Origin: Loripinus fragilis
Taxonomy: Eukaryota > Mollusca > Bivalvia > Lucinida > Lucinidae
Reading direction: 5' to 3'
Length of the DNA: 64,000 bases
Assembly (NCBI GenBank): GCA_964019695.1
Contig: OZ026516.1
Span: 81,671,018 to 81,735,017, forward strand
Under the pieces are notes generated by a model. That model had not been told where the DNA came from. It saw only the letters and a list, made by a program, of their open reading frames with translations, and searched no databases. Each line of letters starts with the position of its first letter. Positions within the stretch are counted from its first letter, which is position 1. Shown here piece after piece: positions 21,105-63,671 of the stretch. The translations under genes and the position numbers were made by a program.

Positions 21105-21400
21105 ATTGAAGTTTTGAACATTTCTTGTACTCCGTATCTACTCGTACGGGAGATTATATCACTTTTAAAAACATTAAAAAGCAAGGGTCCTAGTATTGAG
21201 CCCTGGGTACACCTTTAATGATTTCTACCAATCACTAAAGTTATCACCCAACCTAACTCTCTGTCTCCTATTAGAGAGGTAGCTATGCTGACTCTACAAG
21301 GCCATAAGCCGTCAGCTTATCTATTATGAGGTCATGCAGATAGGTCCATCAGGACGACACCAACAGAAAGAATTTCTAGCGATACGGCGAGCAATCTCCC
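21105..21400 (-). pseudogene. LINE reverse transcriptase remnant (palm)
   Basis: Broken minus-strand frames reconstruct the RT palm order piecemeal. VGVVLMDLSA comes from the motif A region, with the following FD pair deleted or disrupted. Then DLIIDKLTAYGLVESA, SYLSNRRQRVRLGDNFSDW, a damaged GVP-GSILGP motif B and LGPLLFNVF follow in order. At least three frame changes and several stops are present. This differs in sequence from the intact LINE ORF at 26.9-28.9 kb, so it is another family or an old copy. Confidence 0.75.
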
Positions 21401-21766
21401 TAAACGAGACGTTCGTTTTATTTTGTTGAAATGACGACTGGAGAAACTAGGCACATTAAACAAATATATATAGACGGGCCGTCGATGCACCATTGCCCCC
21501 GAATTTGTATATTTAAAACGGGATTACCTTAGTGCATGTAATAACTCTACTTCTTATTGAATGGGAATTTATTTCGATCATCAACTGTACTTGTTATTCA
21601 GTAACATATATGGGAACTAGACCGTTAAACAAGGGAACCAATCGTCCTATCACGCTATGTACAGTAAAACTATTTATACAGTTGATGTACAATAAAAACG
21701 ACCATCTTGCAAAGTGGTCTATTTTTTGTCAGATATTTGATATGTCTTCTTTCGCTTATACAACCC

Positions 21767-47480: not shown

Positions 47481-47805
47481 TTAGATAGTCTCTGTAGCTT
47501 TGTATGCTGGCTCCAGCCTTGCCTCGTCGCCAATTCCGAATTAAGACATGTTATCTCTCGACTTGGCCCTAGTTTAAAATTAGTCTATTTATGATATTAC
47601 ACAGAAATATAAATGATGTCTAACAGTGGTATATCTGAACATTTCATGAACTTTTTATGAGCATTAACCAGCAGGATATATTAATGCTGCATTTTCGTGC
47701 ATTTTAGTGGATTTTTATCAAAAGTATTTGGTAATTGATTGATAGGCCTCACGTCTCCTTGCTGAATAAAAGCGGTTGCTTTTTCTAAATTTTGTATCTG
47801 ATTTA

Positions 47806-48008
47806 AGGTCGGTAAAGTTAGCACTAATTTTGCTGCAGCAAAAACGGTAAAGTTGGCAGCAATTTTTCTGCAGCAAAAAACGGTCAAGTTAGCAGCAACA
47901 GTAAAAAACGGTAAAGTTGGCAGCAATTTTACTGCAGCAAAAAGCGGTCAAGTTAGCAGCAATTTTGCCGCAGCAAAAAAGGTAAAGTTGGCAGCAATTT
48001 TATGGCAG
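47806..48008 (+). repeat. Left outer terminal domain
   Basis: Alternating units: GGTAAAGTTGGCAGCAATTT and GGTCAAGTTAGCAGCAATTT, each followed by CTGCAGCAAAAAAC or a variant, period about 37 bp. Mirrored almost unit-for-unit at 57059-57280. Distinct from the 18 bp units further in. Confidence 0.88.
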
Positions 48009-49285
48009 AGAAAAACGGTCAAGTTAGCACAAAATTTGCTGCTGGCACAAAACTTCTGCCAGCACAAAATTTGCTGCTGGCACAAAAATTCTTGCTAGCA
48101 CAAAAAATTTTGCTAGCAAAAAATTTGCTGCCAGCAAAAAATTTTCTGCTAGCACAAAAATTTCTGCTAGCAAAAAAATTTGCTGCCAGCAAAAAAAATT
48201 CTGCTAGCACAAAATTTGCTGCTGGCAAAAAAATTTCTGCTAGCACAAAAATTTCTGCTAGCACAAAATTTGCTGCTGGCACAAAAAATTCTGCTAGCAT
48301 AAAATTTGCTGCTGGCTCAAAAAATTCTGCTAGCACACAAAATTTTGCTAGCAAAATATTTGCTGCCAGCAAAAAATTTGCTGCTGGCACAAAAATTCCT
48401 GCTAGCACAAAAAAAATTGCTAGAAAAAATTTGCTGCTAGCAAAAAATTTCTGCTAGCACAAACATTTCTGCTGGCCCAAAATTTGCTTCTGGCACAAAA
48501 ATTCCTGCTAGCTCAAAAATTTCTGCTAGCACAAAATTTACTGCTGGCACAAAAATTTCTGCTAGCACAAAAAATCTTCTAACACAAAATTTGCTGCTGG
48601 CACAAAAATTCCTGCTTGCACAAAAAATTTTGCTGATAAAAAATTTGCGGCCAGCAAAAAATTTTCTGCTAGCATAAAATTTTTGCTAGCACAAAATTTG
48701 CTGCAGGCAAAAAATTAACGGCTAGCACAACATTTTCGGCTAGCACGAAATTTGCTGCTAGCACAAAAATTCCTGCTAGCACAAAAATTTCTGCTAGCAC
48801 TAAATTTGCTGCTGGCACAAAAATTTCTGCTAGCACAAAATTTGCTGCCAGCACAAAATTTGCTGCTGGCACAAAAATTCCTGCTAGCAAAAAAATTTCT
48901 ACTGGCACAAAAATTTCTATTAGCACAAAATTTACTGCTGGCACTAAAATATCTGCTAGCACAAACTTTGCTGCCAGCAAAATTTCTGCTAGCACAAAAA
49001 TTTCTGCTAGCACAAAATTTGCTGCTGGCACAAAAATTTCTGCTAGCACAAAATTTGCTGCCAGCACAAAATTTGCTGCTGGCACAAAAATTCCTGCTAG
49101 CATAAAATTTGCTGCTGGCACAAAATTTTCTGCTAGCACAAAAATTTTTGCTTGCACAAAATTTGCTGCCAGCAAAAAATTTGCTGCTGGCACAAAAATA
49201 ACGGCTAGCACAAAAAAAATTTGCTAGAAAAAATTGGCTGCCAGCAAAAAATTTCTGCTGCCACAAGATTTGCTGCAGGCACAAA
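48009..49285 (+). repeat. Left 18 bp array L1
   Basis: About 70 units of two alternating types, roughly CTGCTAGCACAAAAATTT and GCTGCTGGCACAAAATTT. Each is centred on GCTAGC, GCTGGC or GCCAGC, and is close to self-complementary. All six frames stay open because the 18 bp unit has no stop, producing long spurious hexapeptide-repeat ORFs on both strands. Confidence 0.92.
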
Positions 49286-49524
49286 TGAGCCGTGATTGAT
49301 ATTTCCAACAATGTGATATATGCGACCAGCAAAGGCTCAGACCAGCCTGCGCATACGCGCAGACTGATCAGAGTTTTTGCTTGTCGCTTAATTTTTATAT
49401 TAGTGTTAAGCTACTGATCGAACTTAATTTGGTGTTTCTAAGTATAACAGGAGGCTGTACAGGTTCGTCTGAGTCTACACTTGTTAAAATGGCACATTGT
49501 TGGAAATCACATGTCACGGTTCAA
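49286..49524 (+). mobile_element. MITE family D within left arm
   Basis: Starts GAGCCGTGATTGATATTTCC and ends AATCACATGTCACGGTTCA. The interior is AGCCTGCGCATACGCGCAGA followed by CTGATCAGAG. Full length (~239 bp). It follows the array directly. Confidence 0.88.
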
Positions 49525-49530
49525 ACATTC

Positions 49531-50050
49531 CTGAATACCGGGCCGCGTAGGCAGTCGGTAACGTGTCTGGCTACAGATGCGTGTCTGACTTCAGATCCTG
49601 GTGTCCCGAGTTTGATCGCAGCCCGGTCTCATACTTTCATGGAGATTGATCATGAAATAATCTCTACGGTCATATTCCTCCCTTCAGCTGAATCATTCAA
49701 AAAAAGTAATTGTCAGTTATAAGCGAAAGTATGCGCTCAAATTACTGGTTTGATTTGATTAATTACGTCCCGTCAACAATCTTTCAGTTATATAGGGACG
49801 GGTCTTCCTGGGTTGAACCAGTACTAAGCTAGGATAAATGCGTCTTGCTTAAGGGCGCAATGCAACGCCACCAGTGAGGCTCGAACCCGCGGCCACTCGG
49901 TCTCGAGTCAAGAACTCTCGCTCCCATGACAAAGTACTGGTTAACCGCTTCTTCAATGTTCCCAAGGAAAGATGTGATAAGGTGAGCTGACCGTCTCGCC
50001 ATGGCCAAAGTAGTTGACTTGGGGACGTAAAGCAGCAAAACAAACAAAAC
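49531..50050 (+). mobile_element. SINE1 interrupted by SINE2 (left arm)
   Basis: SINE1 head: CCGGGCCGCGTAGGCAGTCG (A-box area) and GAGTTTGATCGC (B-box area), continuing through TCATACTTTCATGGAGATTG to about 49700. Its 3' tail CGTCTCGCCATGGCCAAAGT, GACGTAAAGCAGCAAAACAA is at 49990-50050. Between them is a minus-strand tRNA-headed SINE2 (GGCTCGAACCCGCGGCCACT, the complement of a B box). Same nest mirrored at 55467-55978. Confidence 0.8.
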
Positions 50051-50510
50051 ACAAATATTCCTGCTAGCACAAAAATTGCTGCCAGCACAAAATTGGCTGC
50101 TGGCACAAAAAATTCTGCTATTTATAGCACAAATATTTCTGCTGGCACAAAAATTTCTACTAGCACAAAATTTGCTGCTGGCACAAAAACTTCTGCTAGC
50201 AAAAAATTTGCTGCCCGCACAAAATTTGCTGCTGGCACAAAAATTTCTGCTAGCACAAAATTTGCTGCTGGCAGAAAAATTTCTGCTAGCAAAAAAATTG
50301 CTGCTGGCACAAAATTTGCTGCTGGCCCAAAAATTTCTGCTAGCAAAAAAATTGCAGCCAGCACAAAAATGCTGCTGGCACAAAAATTCCTGCTAGCACA
50401 AAATTTGCTGCCAGCACAAAATTTGCTGCTTGCACGAAAATTCCTGCCAGCACAAAATTTGCTGCCAGCACTAAAATTTCTGCAGGCACAAAATTTGCTG
50501 CAGGCACAAA
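50051..50510 (+). repeat. Left 18 bp array L2
   Basis: Continues straight from the SINE1 tail (AAACAAAACACAAATATTCC) into GCTAGCACAAAAATTGCTGC-type units. About 25 units; ends GCTGCAGGCACAAA at the start of a MITE D. Confidence 0.92.
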
Positions 50511-50708
50511 TGAGCCGTGACATGAGATTACCAACAATGTGGTATGTGCGACCTGCAAAGGCTCAGACCAGCCTGCGCATACGCGCAGACTGATCAGAGC
50601 CTTTGCTTGTCGCTTAATTATTATATGAGTGTAAAGCTACTGATCGAACTTAATTAGTTTTTCTAAGCTTAACAGGAGGCTGCACAGGCTCGTCTGAGTA
50701 TACACTTC
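50511..50708 (+). mobile_element. MITE family D, 3' truncated
   Basis: GAGCCGTGACATGAGATTAC through AACAGGAGGCTGCACAGGCT. The right TIR is lost at about 50708. Confidence 0.85.
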
Positions 50709-50733
50709 AGGAAAAGCTGAAATTGCATGAATT

Positions 50734-51285
50734 TTAGAGAGCAGATGTCGTTATAACCGACGATTTTTCATAAACTAAGGGCAATAAATCCTTAAATAGA
50801 CCATTATAAAACTTGAAGAAAACATCATGGTACTAAACAATGTGACAAAGTTAGTACTAAAAATGTGACAAAGTTTCATAAAATTCTGATCAAAACTATT
50901 CGACTTAGAGAGCGGACATCGTTTAAAACGGTGATTCTTTATAAACAAAGGGCCATAACTGCGGAGAGCATTGTGCGATAGGGACCATTAACAAACTAGA
51001 AGATATCATGGTTCTAAACAATGTGACCCAAATTTCATTAAATTCTGATCAAAAGTATTCGTTTTAGAGAGTGGACATCGTTTCAAATAGTGAATTTTCA
51101 TAAACAAAGGACCATTACTACTGAAAGCATTGTGCGATATGGACCATTATCGAACTTGAAGAAGACATCATGGTACTAAACAATGTGACCAAGTTTCATA
51201 AAATCTGATCAAAAGTATTCGACTTAGAGAGCAGACGTCGTTGGACAGACGGACGGACAGGGGTAATATTTAATGGCCGGGTCAT
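50734..51285 (+). repeat. Tandem ~150-175 bp repeat
   Basis: Units open with TTAGAGAGCAGATGTCG or similar at 50734, 50909, 51062 and 51222. They include TTATAAACAAAGGGCCATAA, GCATTGTGCGATA and AATGTGACCAAGTTTCATAA. The array ends with GACAGACGGACGGACAGG. Part of the central region of the large element. Confidence 0.85.
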
Positions 51286-51394
51286 TGTCATGGCGGGGGC
51301 ATAAAAATGTTTCCGCTCAATAATTTTAAAACACATGGATAAAATTTCATCAAATGTATACAAGTTTACGCCTTGACATTTGCCGGGGCATTAG

Positions 51395-51510
51395 GTGTTA
51401 CCCCTGTATGTACGTCTGTCTGTATGTCACACCCAACGACATCCGCTCTTTCGGTTGAATAGTTTTGATCTGAATTTTATGAAACCTGGTCACATTATTT
51501 AGTACCATAA
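51395..51510 (-). repeat. Inverted partial unit of the same tandem repeat
   Basis: TGTATGTACGTCTGTCTGTA, CAACGACATCCGCTCTTTCG and GAAACCTGGTCACATTATTT are the complement of the last unit and its GGACGG end, so the two face each other. Confidence 0.8.
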
Positions 51511-51706
51511 TTTAGTTCCGATTATGGCCCTTTTCCGATTTGAAGACTTCCGACTTATTAAAGCATATATCACGCTTCCCAAGGCATAAAATCACCCAAA
51601 AATCATAAATTCAAGTCCATGTGCATAAATGAAGTTTAGATTAAAAGAATGCATTAACAGGCGTTGGGATCACAGCAATATGAAATTTATGAAGATCTTT
51701 ATCCGA

Positions 51707-51886
51707 GGTTATAAAACTTTTTTGTACTCAACTGACCAATGAGCGTGATTATTACCGCATCTGTGCGCCCTCGGGGTCCGGTGAACGTCTGGAAGCAAGA
51801 AAAGTTTATTTTAAGCATTTGACTTTATGATCATTTAAACAATCCTGCTCATTTGAGTTGAGCACGAAAACGTTTTTATAACTTAA
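51707..51886. mobile_element. MITE family E, diverged
   Basis: GAGGTTATAAAACTTTTTTG, CTCAACTGACC at the left and CTCATTTGAGTTGAGCACGA, CGTTTTTATAAC at the right, with an unrelated centre. Confidence 0.7.
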
Positions 51887-52159
51887 AAATTATTCTTCCA
51901 GCCTTTAATTCACTCTGTCCACTTTTGATAACATTGGTGTATGTATACATGTGTATGCCAGGTATACGCTTTAATTGAGTCACACAAAAGCTTGGTCTTT
52001 GCTAAGCAAGCCTAAAATCATTATTCTGATCAAAATAATGAGTATGGTCAGCAAATACTACAATCACCAAAAACCAAAAATATACTGAACAAAAAAAAAA
52101 ATAAGTTTACACTTTAACCAATTTAACAAAAACTCAATACTTTAAAAGGTATGCGTATA

Positions 52160-52376
52160 TGACAAAGATCAGGAATCAATGCAATCAAGTACTACACCTG
52201 ACACATGACACCACATTGGAAAGTGACAAAAACTCAACATCACATACAAGCAAGAGGTTTACCCCTTCCAAGCATGGATGACCACAAGGCTGCAATTAAC
52301 AGGCAAGAAAGCATGACAAACACGAAACATAAATAACAAGAAGGATTCACAAAAGAAGCACCGCCTTGGCCACACG
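52160..52376 (+). repeat. Dispersed repeat B
   Basis: ACAAAGATCAGGAATCAATG, AAGTACTACACCTGACACAT, GGAAAGTGACAAAAACTCAA, GGATGACCACAAGG, CACAAAAGAAGCACCGCCTT. Diverged. Confidence 0.75.
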
Positions 52377-52696
52377 TCTGACAAGACAACCATGCGAAAC
52401 TTGATCAGGCGTTCATGAATAACGTTGAAAAACGTCAAACTGCATTTTTAAGTCTGGAAGATTATCTTTACGATATTTTGAATAGGTAAACACACTATTC
52501 GGGAGTATTTCTGTCTGAACATCGAACATCAAGAAGTAACGTCTGCGATGTATACTGTACTAATGTTACGGTACGTCAAAATGAGCGTAAGAAGGCTTTT
52601 GGCAGATCACCACCATACCAAGAGTAATCAGCACGGTATAGATGTTTGGTTGCTCAAGATTTAATGGAGAAATATAAAGTAAAAAATCGAAAAAAT

Positions 52697-53037
52697 AACA
52701 ATTTTTAAATGCTGGCAACAATTTTGCTGCTGGCAGAATTTTTTTTGCTAGCAGGAATTTTTGTGCCAGCAGCAAATTTTGTGCTAGCAGAAATTTTTGT
52801 GCCAGCAGCAAATTTTGCGCTAGCAGGAATTTTTGTGCTAGCAGCAAATTTTGTGCTAGCAGGAATTTTTGTGCCAGTAGCAAATTTTGTGCTGGCAGCA
52901 AATTTTGTGCTAGCAAGATTTTTTGTGCCAGCAGTAAATTTTGTGCTGGCAGCAAATTTTGTGCTAGCAGGAATTTTTGTGCCAGCAGCAAATTTTGTGC
53001 TGGCAACAATTTCTGTGCTGGCAGAAATATTTGTGTT
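52697..53037 (-). repeat. Right 18 bp array R1
   Basis: Complement orientation: GTGCCAGCAGCAAATTTT and GTGCTAGCAGGAATTTTT units, about 19. Begins abruptly after an AT-rich stretch (inner end of the right arm) and runs into the SINE1 tail complement (ATTTGTGTTTTGTTTGTTTT). Confidence 0.92.
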
Positions 53038-53264
53038 TTGTTTGTTTTGTCCCAAGTCAACAACTATGGTCATGGCGAGACTATAAGCTCACCTAACTAC
53101 ACCTTTCTGGGGCAAGCTTGAAGAAGCGATTAATTAGTACTTCGTCATCGGAGCGCAGTGGCTCAGTGGTAGAGTGCTTGACTCGAAACCGAGGGGCCGC
53201 GGCTTCGAGCCTCACCGGCGTCATTGCGTTGTGCCCTTGTGCAAGACACATTAATCCTAGCTAA
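53038..53264. mobile_element. SINE1 tail (-) and SINE2 tRNA head (+)
   Basis: SINE1 tail complement (AAGTCAACAACTATGGTCAT) then a plus-strand SINE2 head. Its A box is TGGCTCAGTGGTAG (53159-53172) and its B box is GGCTTCGAGCC (53201-53211). These match the Pol III internal promoter consensus and are spaced as in a tRNA. SINE2 is cut at 53264 by a further insertion and resumes at 54713. Confidence 0.82.
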
Positions 53265-53609
53265 AGCCCCGTTCTCACTGTCCCGGTTTAAGGTGCCGGT
53301 TCATCCCGGTTTGATGATCCGGGATGAACCGCGATGAACCGTGTCACAATCGTGGCGGCACCGTGGACAACTTTGGAGATCCGGGATGAACCGTGTTGAA
53401 CCGGCTCATGTCCCCGGTTGTTTTAAAATGTTTTAAACAACCGGAACTCACCGGGAGTAACCGAGAAGGCTGTCAAATACCGTGGTAAACTGGGACGACG
53501 CCGGGAGCAACCGTGTCTCCACCGGGACGGCGTCCACGCGATACCGGCGCATTCCGGAAACATCCGTGTCTCCACCGTGATAAACCGTGCGCGATGAAGA
53601 CCTCCGGTA

Positions 53610-53838
53610 TGCCTGATTTTTCAGCAATGTGGTATGTGCCAATAACAAAACCTCAGATCAGCCTGCGCCTAGGCGCAGTCTGATCAGAGCCTTTGCCAGT
53701 CGCTTGATTATTATTTGACTGTTAAGCTACTGACCGAACTACATCTAAAATTTCTTAGCTAAAATGGTTACTGCACAGGCTTGTCTGAGTCTACACTTCT
53801 CAAAATACCACACTGTTGGAAATCACATGCCGCGGCGC
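53610..53838 (+). mobile_element. MITE family D
   Basis: GCAATGTGGTATGTGCCAAT, AGCCTGCGCCTAGGCGCAGT, CTGATCAGAGCCTTTGCC, ending AATCACATGCCGCGGCGC. The left TIR is eroded. Confidence 0.82.
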
Positions 53839-53874
53839 ATAGTGTTTATATATTTTTACTAAAAAGCAAGACAA

Positions 53875-54140
53875 TCTGGGCCAAAATTACAATGCACCCT
53901 TAAAGTTAAGGAAGACTTAAGTATTGAATTTTCAGGATGCGAAAAACAACGTTTTCAAACTGATTAAAATCAAAATAGTTTCTTTTTTTTTTCTATAGAT
54001 CACAATGATATTTTTGACAACAAGTACTGCACAGGTCCTGGCAATTTATTAAGCATTAATGTAACATGTTGAAATATACTTAAATTAAGTCTTCCTTAAC
54101 TTTAAGGAGGCATTGTACACATGTAGGTCTGGGCCCAGAT
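53875..54140. mobile_element. ~266 bp inverted-repeat MITE
   Basis: The left arm TCTGGGCCAAAATTACAATG, CCTTAAAGTTAAGGAAGACT pairs with the right arm AGTCTTCCTTAACTTTAAGG, CATTGTACACATGTAGGTCT, GGGCCCAGA. Loop AT-rich. Confidence 0.85.
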
Positions 54141-54170
54141 CAACAACATTTGAACCTCGTCGTCAGAAAA

Positions 54171-54405
54171 CAGGCCCCGAGCTTAAAAACATTTTTCATA
54201 CTCAACTAAGCTGAGCACGAAATTTATCCTGCTCATAAATGTTAAAATGCCAACAATTTTGGCATTTTAACTTTTATTAGCATGATAAATACAACACCTG
54301 AGAGACTTAAAGCAAGAAACTTCTTTATTTGCCGGTATTTTAGTTTTTATGAGCAGTCGAATTTCATGCTCAGTTGAGTTGAGCATGAAAAAGTTTTATA
54401 ACCTC
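54171..54405. mobile_element. MITE family E
   Basis: GGCCCCGAGCTTAAAAACAT and TCAACTAAGCTGAGCACGAA at the left, CTCAGTTGAGTTGAGCATGA and AAGTTTTATAACCTC at the right, with the ATGCCAACAATTTTGGCATT centre. Confidence 0.85.
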
Positions 54406-54712
54406 TGCTTCTGCTTATACGACAACATACATGTAAATGAGCTGCGAGGTTACTAAGCATTTGTTTTCGCTACATAGATTATGATTCCTCTAGAACCGTG
54501 GCTCCACCGTGCTCCAACGTGCTGCACTGTAAGTGCTCCGTGGTGAACCGGGAATCAACCGGCGTCTTGCCGGACCGGGGCTATACTGGGGTAACGTCGG
54601 CAAGGTGAGAACGAATTTTTTTTTTATGAAATGTGTCCCGGTGCATCACGGTATACCGGCTGTCCTGCATCGCGATGTACTGTGGCTCCATCTGCACAGT
54701 GAGAACGGGGCT

Positions 54713-55007
54713 TTTGCACCGGTTCAACCAAGGAAGACACGTCCCTACATAACTGAAAGCTTGTTGATGGGACGTAATGAATCAAATCAAACCAGTACTT
54801 CGTGCGCATACTTTCGCTTAAAACTGACAGCTACTTCTCTTGAATGATATAGCGAAATGGAGTGATATGATGGTAGAAATTATTTCACGATCAATCTCCA
54901 TGAAAGTATGAGACCGGGCTGCGATCAAACTTGGGACACCAGGATCCTCAGTCAGACACGCATCTGTAGCCAAACTACCGACTGCCTGCGCGGCCCGATA
55001 TGAAGAT
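54713..55007 (-). mobile_element. SINE2 remainder and SINE1 head
   Basis: GGTTCAACCAAGGAAGACAC through TTGATGGGACGTAATGAATC is the other part of SINE2. TCAATCTCCATGAAAGTATG then GACCGGGCTGCGATCAAACT is the complement of the SINE1 head. It parallels 55690-55975, so the module is duplicated in the right arm. Confidence 0.8.
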
Positions 55008-55466
55008 TTGTGCCTGCAGCAACTTTTGTGCCAGCAATAATTTTAGTGCCTGCAGCCAATTTTGTGCTAGCAGGAATTTTTGTGTCAGCAGCATATTTTG
55101 TGCTGGCAGCAATTTTTTGTCCTAGCAGAAATTTTTGTGCCAGCAGTAAATTTTGTGCTAGCAGGAATTTTTGTGCCAGCAGCAAATTTTGTGCTAGCAG
55201 GAATTTTTGTGCCAGCAGCAAATTTTGTGCTAGCAGAAATTTTTGTGCCAGCAGCAAATTTTGTGCTAGCAGGAAATTTTGTTCCAGCAGCAAATTTTGT
55301 GCTAGCAGGAATTTTTGTGCCAGCAGCAAATTTTGTGCTGGCAGCAATTTTTGTGCCAGCAGCAAAGTTTGTGCTGGCAGCAAATTTTGTGCTAGCAGGA
55401 TTTTTTGTGCCAGCAGTAAATTTTGTGCTGGCAGCAATTTTTGTGCTAGCAGGAATATTTGTGTTT
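55008..55466 (-). repeat. Right 18 bp array R2
   Basis: About 25 units. Starts TTTGTGCCTGCAGC, the mirror of the end of L2, and finishes with GCTAGCAGGAATATTTGTGT next to the SINE1 tail. Length nearly equal to L2 (about 460 bp each). Confidence 0.92.
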
Positions 55467-55978
55467 TTGTTTGTTTTGCTGCTTTACGTCCCCAAGTCAA
55501 CAACTATGGCCATGGCGAGACGGACAGCTCACCTAATCACATCTTTCCTCGGGAAGCTTGAAGAAGCGGTTAACCAGTACTTTGTCATGGGAGCGAGAGT
55601 GCTTGACTCGAGACCGAGTAGCCGCGGGTTCGAGCCTCACCGGCGGCGTTGCATTGCGCCCTTAAGCAGGACGCATTTATCCTAGCTTAGTACTGGTTCA
55701 ACCCTGGGAGACCCGTCCCTATGTAACTGAATGATTGTTGATGGGACGTAATGAATCAAATCAACCAGTACGTACTTCGTGCGCATACTTTCGCTTAAAA
55801 CTGACAGCTACTTCTCGGAAGGGAGTGATATGACGGTAGAAATTATTTCACGATCAATCTCCATGAAAGTATGAGACCGGGCTGCGATCAAACTCGGGAC
55901 ACCAGGATCTGCAATCAGACACGTATCTGTAGCCAGACACGTTACCGACTACCTACGCGGCCCGGTATTCAGGAATGT
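55467..55978 (-). mobile_element. SINE1 interrupted by SINE2 (right arm)
   Basis: Complement of the nest at 49531-50050, with the same breakpoints: SINE1 tail complement, plus-strand SINE2 head (CGCGGGTTCGAGCCTCACC B-box region near 55625), SINE2 body, then the SINE1 head complement ending at GCGGCCCGGTATTCAGGAAT. Confidence 0.82.
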
Positions 55979-56219
55979 TTGAACCGTGACATGTGATTTC
56001 CAACAATGTACCATCTTGACAAGTGTAGACTCAGACGAACCTGTGCAGCCTCCTGTTAAGCTTAGAAACACCAAATTAAGTTCGATCAGTAGCTTAACAC
56101 TTACATAATAATTAAACGACAAGCAAAGGCTCTGATCAGTGTGCGCGTATGCGCAGGCTAGTCTGAGCCTTTGCTGGTCGCACAGACGACATTGTTGGAA
56201 ATCTCATGTCACTGCTCAT
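55979..56219 (-). mobile_element. MITE family D within right arm
   Basis: TTGAACCGTGACATGTGATT to AATCTCATGTCACTGCTCAT. Mirror of the 49286-49524 copy. Confidence 0.88.
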
Positions 56220-57058
56220 TTGTGCCAGCAGCAAATTTTGTTCTTGCAGAAATTTTAGTGCTGGGAGCAAATTTTGTGCTGGCAGGAATTTTTGTGCCAG
56301 CAGCAAATTTTTTGTTAGCAAAATTTTTTGTGCTAGCAGAAGTTTTTGTGCCAGGAGCAAATTTTGTGCTAGGAGAATTTTTTGTGCTAGCAGAAATTTA
56401 TGTGCCAGCAGCAAATTTTGTGCAAGCAGAAATTTTTGTGCTAGCAGAAAATTTATTTTTTGCTAACAGAATTTTTTGTGCTAGCAGGAATTTTTGTGCC
56501 AGCAGCAAATTTTGTGCTAGCAGAAATTTTTGTGCTAGCAGAAATTTTAGTGCTGGTATCAAATTTTGTGCTGGCAGGATTTTTTGTGCCAGCAACAAAT
56601 TTTTTGCTAGCAGAAATTTTTGTGCCAGCAGCAAATTTTGTCCTAGCAGAAATTTTTGTGCTAGCAGAAAATTTTTTGCTGGCAGCAAATTTCTTGCTAG
56701 CAAATTTTTTTGTGCTAGCAGGAATTTTTGTGCCAGCAGCAAATTTTTTGCTGGCAGCAAATATTTTGCTGGCAAAATTTTTTGTGCTTGCAGAAATGTT
56801 TGTGCCATCAGCAAATTTTGTGCTAGCAGAAATTTTTGTGCCAGCAGCAAATTTTGTGCTAGCAGAAATTTTTGTGCTAGCAGAATTTTTTTTGCCAGCG
56901 GCAAATTTTGTGCTAGCAGAAATTTTTGTGTTAGCAGAAAAATTTTTGCCATCAGAAAAATTTGTGCTAGCAGAATTTTTTGTGCTAGCAGGAATTTTTG
57001 TGCCAGCAGCAAATTTTGTGCTAGCAGAATTTTTGTGCTAGCAGAAATTGTTGTGCTA
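56220..57058 (-). repeat. Right 18 bp array R3
   Basis: About 46 units; shorter than its counterpart L1 (about 70), so the arrays have changed in copy number independently since arm formation. The longest plus-strand frame (297 codons) switches from VPAANF/VLAEIF to SRNFCA-type hexapeptides partway, showing an indel that was not selected against. Confidence 0.92.
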
Positions 57059-57280
57059 ACTTGACCGTTTTTCTCTGCCGTAAAATTGCTGCCAACTTTA
57101 CCGTTTTTTGCTGCGGCAAAATTGCTGCTAACTTGACCGTTTTTTGCTGCAGTAAAATTGCTGCCAACTTTACCGTTTTTTACTGTTGCTGCTTACTTGA
57201 CCGTTTTTTGCTGCAGAAATATTGCTGCCAACTTTACCGTTTTTTTGCTGCAGCAAAATTAGTGCTAACTTTACCGACTT
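57059..57280 (-). repeat. Right outer terminal domain
   Basis: AACTTGACCGTTTTTCTCTG, AATTGCTGCCAACTTTACCG and AATTGCTGCTAACTTGACCG units. Ends GTGCTAACTTTACCGACTT at the TCTGATTTA duplication. Confidence 0.88.
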
Positions 57281-57289
57281 TCTGATTTA

Positions 57290-59226: not shown

Positions 59227-59337
59227 TACAGGTCTTGGGCCTACAATGGATCACATTTTCGGATATTTACCCATGAAGATAACATTTATGGACAAATGCA
59301 CTATAATTAAGCATTCTTTGAATTTAGCATTTTTAAA

Positions 59338-59578
59338 TTGAGCCTTGGCATGGGATTTCTAACAATGTGGTATATGCGACCAGCAAAGCCTCAGATCAGC
59401 CTGCGCATATGCGCAGTCTGATCAGAGCCTTTGCTAGTCGCTTGAGTATTCTTTGAGTGTTCAGCTACTGACTGAACATCATTTGGAGTTTCTCAGCTTA
59501 AAAGGAGGCTACACAGTCTCACCTGAGTCTACACTTGTCAAAATGCCACATTGTTGGAAATCACATGTCGCGGCTCAA
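59338..59578 (+). mobile_element. MITE family D, complete isolated copy
   Basis: Left TIR TTGAGCCTTGGCATGGGATT, right TIR AAATCACATGTCGCGGCTCAA (~33 bp inverted). The interior has CAGCCTGCGCATATGCGCAG, TCTGATCAGAGCCTTTGCTA and CTGAGTCTACACTTGTC. Best reference copy for the family; outside the large element. Confidence 0.9.
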
Positions 59579-59625: not shown

Positions 59626-59818
<193 letters not shown>

Positions 59819-63448: not shown

Positions 63449-63671
63449 AACCGGGCTGCGTAGCGCTGTCGGTAACGTGTCTGGCAACAGATGCAAGTCT
63501 GACTGCAGATCCAGGGGTCGCGAGTTCGATCCCCGCCCGGTCCCATACTTTCGTGGAGATTGATCATGAAATAATTTTTACGGTCGTTCTCCTCCCTTGT
63601 GGTAAGGTAAACTGACCGTTCCTCACTGACCATAGCTGTTGACTTTGGACGTAAAGCATCAAAACAAACAG
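63449..63671 (+). mobile_element. tRNA-derived SINE1, isolated copy
   Basis: The tRNA-like head has an A-box region TAGCGCTGTCGG (63461-63472) and B-box GAGTTCGATCC (63522-63532), followed by ATACTTTCGTGGAGATTGAT and a body. The 3' end is GTTGACTTTGGACGTAAAGC followed by ATCAAAACAAACA. The same SINE family is embedded three times in the large element at 47.8-57.3 kb. Possibly related to molluscan V-SINE/RUDI-type elements, which I cannot verify. Not a functional tRNA: the spacing between boxes is long and the acceptor pairing is poor. Confidence 0.8.

Follow-up and report, generated by a model that had tools for sequence, protein, structure and literature searches.

A foldback-type DNA transposon family, probably mobilised by a MULE transposase, in the genome of the lucinid bivalve Loripinus fragilis

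We analysed a 64,000-nucleotide stretch of the Loripinus fragilis genome (contig OZ026516.1, positions 81,671,018 to 81,735,017; hereafter the window), which contains a complete foldback-type element at positions 47806-57280 (9,475 bp without the duplications that flank it). The best explanation, to which we assign a probability of about 0.9, is that this element is a non-autonomous foldback cut-and-paste DNA transposon of a young family, probably mobilised by a Mutator-type (MULE) transposase. An earlier note on this DNA, made from the letters alone, had described inverted tips with the 9 bp sequence TCTGATTTA outside each end, and both were located exactly where it had put them. The shared inverted tip, GTCGGTAAAGTTAGCACTAA, is found at 47808 on the plus strand and at 57259 on the minus strand, with two extra bases outside it at each end (AG on the left, AA on the right). 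The ends of other copies start with AGGTCGG, with few single changes; the left end of the window copy has this standard form and the right one (AAGTC) is a variant, whose A is probably a point change because nearly all other ends read carry AG. Behind the tips stand long inverted arms of short tandem repeats, which BLAST aligns in two overlapping segments, an outer one (47805-48893 versus 57281-56219, 84%) and an inner one (48438-50511 versus 57058-55006, 85%), i.e. from the tips as far as 50511 on the left and 55006 on the right. No array matches were found by BLAST elsewhere in the window.

The search with the element ends for which the earlier note had called was made in the same genome (1.99 Gb in 685 contigs), and many copies with the same tips were found. 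With the first 304 bases as query (best 40 of 484 candidates scored), there were at least 77 matches, including 41 of near full length, two of which are the window's own ends. Among the matches listed, 36 of these 41 start at the element boundary, either on the final base of the duplication (query base 9) or on the opening base of the element (query base 10); the remaining five begin at bases 1 (the window itself), 4, 6, 6 and 12. If three or fewer mismatches are allowed, a 36-base tip pattern occurs at 208 places (102 forward, 106 reverse; the first 100 were listed individually), and the reversed pattern, used as a control on the same genome, occurs at none. From the number of tips we estimate a family of roughly a hundred copies. 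Exact 35-base tips number 154 (the base just outside is a purine in 81 and a pyrimidine in 73), and neighbouring exact tips at most 60 kb apart form 55 inward-facing, no outward-facing and four same-direction pairs. The tip pattern had no match in collections of viral contigs and genome contigs, as expected for a eukaryote, nor did the 18 bp pattern of the arms in viral contigs.

Target duplications were recounted from coordinates for 49 end pairs (45 plus four further copies), a subset of the existing pairs. Perfect duplications flank 43 of the 49, as is usual for most copies of a foldback element; 39 are of 9 bp and four of 10 bp. In three other pairs (L039/L040, L047/L048 and L019) the duplication is imperfect, with one or two mismatches. 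When left and right flanks were crossed as a control, perfect matches were obtained in 6 of 2,352 combinations, all among three copies on C12. Since these three perfect pairs are copies of one triplicated locus, independent perfect pairs number 41 of 47. The locus in question (C12:60789089-60870469) holds three 17.1 kb copies at a spacing of ~32 kb, all with the same duplication, ATTAGAATA, which suggests that a segment with the element inside it was triplicated. A consistent target duplication in other copies, which the earlier note had made the testable point, is present; these perfect duplications and the 36 end matches that begin at the boundary strongly support its view of a single mobile unit comprising all 9,475 bp.

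Empty sites provide a further line of evidence. For each of the 49 insertions, the two flanks were joined and compared with the window and the other loci read, and unoccupied paralogous sites were found for six insertions. For the 13.6 kb copy at C10:21127183-21140793 (L081/L082) the empty site lies in the window itself (21367-21525, 94% over 159 bp across the junction). The others belong to L112 (up to 94%), L043/L044 (83%) and L051/L052 (82%) and, more weakly, to L009 and L010 (~74-76%; and ~73%, small gaps at the junction). A single weak element-free span (66%) was seen for L059/L060, and none was seen for the other 42 insertions in the loci compared.

Copies differ widely in length. The 45 end pairs have a median length of 9,643 bp; the smallest, of 784 bp, has a perfect duplication, and the largest measures 22.8 kb. 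Among the four further copies, whose duplications are all perfect, two are small (170 and 507 bp) and two large (22.3 and 39.8 kb), so that the full range is 170 bp to 39.8 kb. The two shortest have short arms, and the 170 bp copy is made up solely of two tip/outer-array pieces in opposite orientation. Therefore, movement does not require the 18 bp arrays, the modules resembling short interspersed nuclear elements (SINEs) or the core, and ~85 bp per end is enough. At another locus (C14:62522680-62532660, L018), two right tips 4.4 kb apart accompany one exact left tip at 62518094, an arrangement that we read as nested or compound copies.

The superfamily is probably Mutator-type, because of the duplication length and by analogy with two known foldback elements, Tm1 and Tetris. 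P-type elements make duplications of 7-8 bp, in disagreement with the 9-10 bp present in 43 of the 49 pairs. It is thus quite unlikely that the element was moved by a P-type transposase and not by a MULE, even if Galileo, which is moved in that way, resembles it in its long arms with internal repeats, where the transposase has several sites to bind (PMC3688188, excerpt). MULEs make duplications of 8-11 bp (PMC6446971, excerpt), a range that holds all 43 perfect duplications, most of which are of 9 bp. A different account would be two separate facing tandem arrays, or an assembly artefact, with a 9 bp repeat arising by chance, and random pairs of 9-mers from the window were indeed identical in 84 of 2,000,000 draws (~4 in 100,000). 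Long arrays also misassemble easily. Dozens of other loci have the same tips and duplications, however, and inward pairs stand at 55 against no outward ones, which makes this account extremely improbable. To our knowledge, Helitrons and Helentrons make no target duplication and Helentrons have no long inverted arms, both of which are present here. A satellite-carrying Helentron-type element, as reported from the Pacific oyster (PMC7492417, excerpt), can for that reason be dismissed with similar confidence, even though here, too, a non-autonomous element in a bivalve genome carries tandem repeats.

Several results weigh against a transposon mobilised by a MULE. Three of the 49 end pairs are without duplication (L083/L084, with Ns in the flank, L088/L089 and L090/L091). 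Empty sites, which the earlier note had proposed to look for, were found at paralogous positions for six insertions, and for the window copy's own insertion there was none in the loci compared. In agreement with the earlier note, no transposase frame is recognisable in the window copy, where 14 non-array frames of at least 60 amino acids gave no significant Pfam match; 10 chosen frames from other loci likewise gave no transposase, the only significant match being a reverse transcriptase in L025. The autonomous partner that the note had postulated, a longer tip-bearing copy with a transposase, was looked for and not found in the copies read, several long ones of which were read in part only. 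A genome search for MULE domains (best 150 of 212 candidates scored) yielded at least 86 places, and none of those listed lies within 227,716 bp of any of the 154 exact tips. Three of the eight MULE loci returned were scanned and match MULE and ZSWIM-type RNaseH-like domains; the AGGTCGG tip is present in none of the eight. A variable middle without a recognised transposase gene, as seen in the copies read, is at the same time characteristic of foldback elements.

We propose that a transposase made elsewhere, probably that of a MULE, recognises the AGGTCGGTAAAGTTAGCAC tips and would move whatever sits between two inward-facing ones, with insertion by a staggered cut of 9 (sometimes 10) bp. The 36 bp outer repeats would have arisen from the tip by multiplication with slight changes and likely serve as extra transposase binding sites, and the inner 18 bp arrays may be a further derived, dispensable expansion. 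The earlier note had given the arms as tandem units of 37 and 18 bp. The 18 bp unit holds, the outer unit is mostly of 35-36 bp (with one 28 bp variant), and the arms contain, besides tandem units, pieces resembling SINEs and miniature inverted-repeat transposable elements (MITEs). Of 38 bases compared, 31 are the same in the tip and the 36 bp unit. When the two halves of this unit are aligned to the 18 bp unit, the second scores above all 1,000 shuffles; the score of the first half is unremarkable (reached by 215 and 45 of 1,000 shuffles on the two strands). On the basis of these two likenesses, the arrays look like successive expansions starting at the tip.

Homogenisation of the two arms of a copy was not seen among the 18 outer arrays of nine complete copies: the nearest array was the copy's own second arm in one of the nine (L021), and mean identity was 97.2% within copies versus 97.1% between them. 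Between the nine copies the outer arrays are 94.8-99.6% identical, which suggests recent spread, and the family was probably active recently, since the element ends are highly identical. The arrays were also considered as genes and rejected as such. Their open frames (up to 300 amino acids, on both strands and in several frames) are long because the 18 bp unit has few stops, and are a by-product; 20 matches to predicted proteins from array-type frames were taken only as a sign of further copies.

The longest copy (C18:80677839-80717617, 39.8 kb; read as L024, L117, L118, L119 and L114) has outermost tips flanked by a perfect 10 bp duplication, TTACTTTACA. From left to right, its left arm and core are followed by a right arm with a worn tip near 80689352, ~27 kb of other sequence and a second, outer right arm with a fresh tip; the 10 bp duplication does not follow the worn tip. 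The ~27 kb between the worn tip and the outer right arm have little similarity with the element: the sole matches, to core1, core3 and 39 bases of the insert, are scattered and in part dispersed repeats. This arrangement fits a 39.8 kb segment moved by two distant tips. It is also possible that DNA was inserted later into an older element, or that the 10 bp match is due to chance, and no empty site for this copy was found in the loci compared. That any two inward-facing tips can cooperate, and that the family moves large host segments as a general carrier of host DNA, is a tentative idea that we hold to be somewhat doubtful. If it were true, arms that absorbed and spread SINE- and MITE-like pieces would, combined with large-segment movement, make the family such a carrier.

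The anatomy of the window copy is given in Table 1. From the outside inward, each arm consists of the 36 bp array, the 18 bp array, modules M, X and S and a second 18 bp array; the right half continues inward with an extra X, a 1.45 kb insert, an extra S and a third 18 bp array. Modules M and X have stand-alone relatives within the window. Modules X and S are putatively SINE-like, judging by their box motifs. The 1.45 kb insert has internal CCGGGATGAACCGTG-like repeats, and by eye no clear duplication surrounds it.

Table 1. Components of the 9.5 kb window copy and its flanking duplications (positions in the window)
Feature	Positions	Strand	Basis
Left 9 bp target-site duplication, TCTGATTTA	47797-47805		Sequence match and recount of end pairs
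Left tip and outer array, about six 36 bp units	47806-48029	+	Matched 93-99% by other copies
Left 18 bp array L1, TAGCACAAAATTTGCTGC type, ~70 units	48025-49285	+	Repeat analysis
Module M, MITE-like, own inverted ends	49286-49529	+	BLAST; relative at 59336-59578
Module X, tRNA-SINE-like	49530-49750	+	BLAST; relative at 63450-63598
Module S, second tRNA-SINE-like piece	49790-50049	+	BLAST, copy mapping
Second left 18 bp array L2	50050-50510	+	Repeat analysis, BLAST
Partial second copy of module M	50511-50707	+	BLAST, copy mapping
Core without recognisable gene	50708-52705		Parts match L026, C9, C3 and C18 copies, 85-98%
Third 18 bp array R3	52710-53035	-	Repeat analysis, BLAST
Second right copy of module S	53036-53262	-	BLAST, copy mapping
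1.45 kb insert, inverted ends AAAGCCCCGTTCTCACTGT	53264-54716		Whole or part in 6 of 8 other mapped copies
Second right copy of module X	54718-55001	-	BLAST, copy mapping
Second right 18 bp array R2	55007-55463	-	Repeat analysis, BLAST
Right module S	55464-55692	-	BLAST, copy mapping
Right module X	55693-55978	-	BLAST, copy mapping
Right module M	55979-56218	-	BLAST, copy mapping
Right 18 bp array R1, ~46 units	56219-57058	-	Repeat analysis
Right tip and outer array, unit order as in left	57054-57280	-	Repeat analysis, array comparison
Right 9 bp target-site duplication, TCTGATTTA	57281-57289		Sequence match and recount of end pairs

Elsewhere in the window there are an open frame of 670 amino acids that encodes a reverse transcriptase domain (PF00078; 26930-28939, minus strand), a perfect (AT) microsatellite of 94.5 units (59628-59816) and a tandem array of TCGAATA-type units with a period of 46 (50-284). 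No RNA family reached its gathering score and no tRNA gene was called by ARAGORN.

Foldback elements have been described in Drosophila, Chironomus, sea urchin and plants (PMC4079207, excerpt) and also in nematodes (PMC3169594, excerpt), and MULE groups are listed for Mollusca (PMC6446971, excerpt). No description of a mollusc foldback family was seen among the open-licence papers listed by full-text searches; in the excerpts of three bivalve papers (PMC5139131, PMC8268682 and PMC11136912) the sole mention of foldback elements is a reference to Tetris. The family presented here is a foldback family documented with many complete copies, clean duplications, empty sites and probably recent activity. 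With lengths between 170 bp and 39.8 kb, its copies allow what is required at the ends to be told apart from mere cargo, and the tip-like 36 bp units make it possible to test directly whether the arms of foldback elements are binding sites that have multiplied.

Drosophila Foldback elements have long inverted arms of short tandem repeats and make 9 bp duplications. FB/NOF, set side by side with the family by description only, is alike in both respects and unlike it in that no NOF-like gene was found here. Sea urchin TU elements make 8 bp duplications and, because of this, fit the 9-10 bp found here less well. Of the likeness to Foldback/TU elements drawn in the earlier note, the foldback-like structure is what stands. 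Galileo shares long repetitive arms, and its shorter duplications set it apart. Its multiple binding sites are a model for the repeats here, and its transposase is P-type (PMC3688188, excerpt). Rehavkus, likewise compared by description only, makes 9 bp duplications and has a minisatellite ahead of its 3' inverted repeat; unlike the family here, it encodes a transposase, and it is given for arthropods and annelids (PMC6446971, excerpt). Tetris of Drosophila virilis (PMC4079207, excerpt) is a modular non-coding foldback element with 8-10 bp duplications, no autonomous copy found and tandem repeats in its arms of which a stretch recurs in the outer part, but its units are of ~220 bp as opposed to 36 and 18 bp, and it has three structurally complete copies versus dozens here. 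The Mutator/Foldback element Tm1 of root-knot nematodes (PMC3169594, excerpt) shares with the present family composite arms with short tandem repeats, usually non-identical within a copy, a MITE-like class and duplications of 8-10 bp, mostly 9, which flank the majority of copies (45 of 53 in Tm1, 43 of 49 here). It differs in its repeat sequence, its unit of ~14 bp and its asymmetric ends (symmetric here), and one of its copies encodes a 496-amino-acid Phantom-type MULE transposase, whereas none was found here; copies of the present family are also far longer and carry SINE-like modules. Tm1 is nonetheless the closest in build, and the family is best read as a new one of a known kind.

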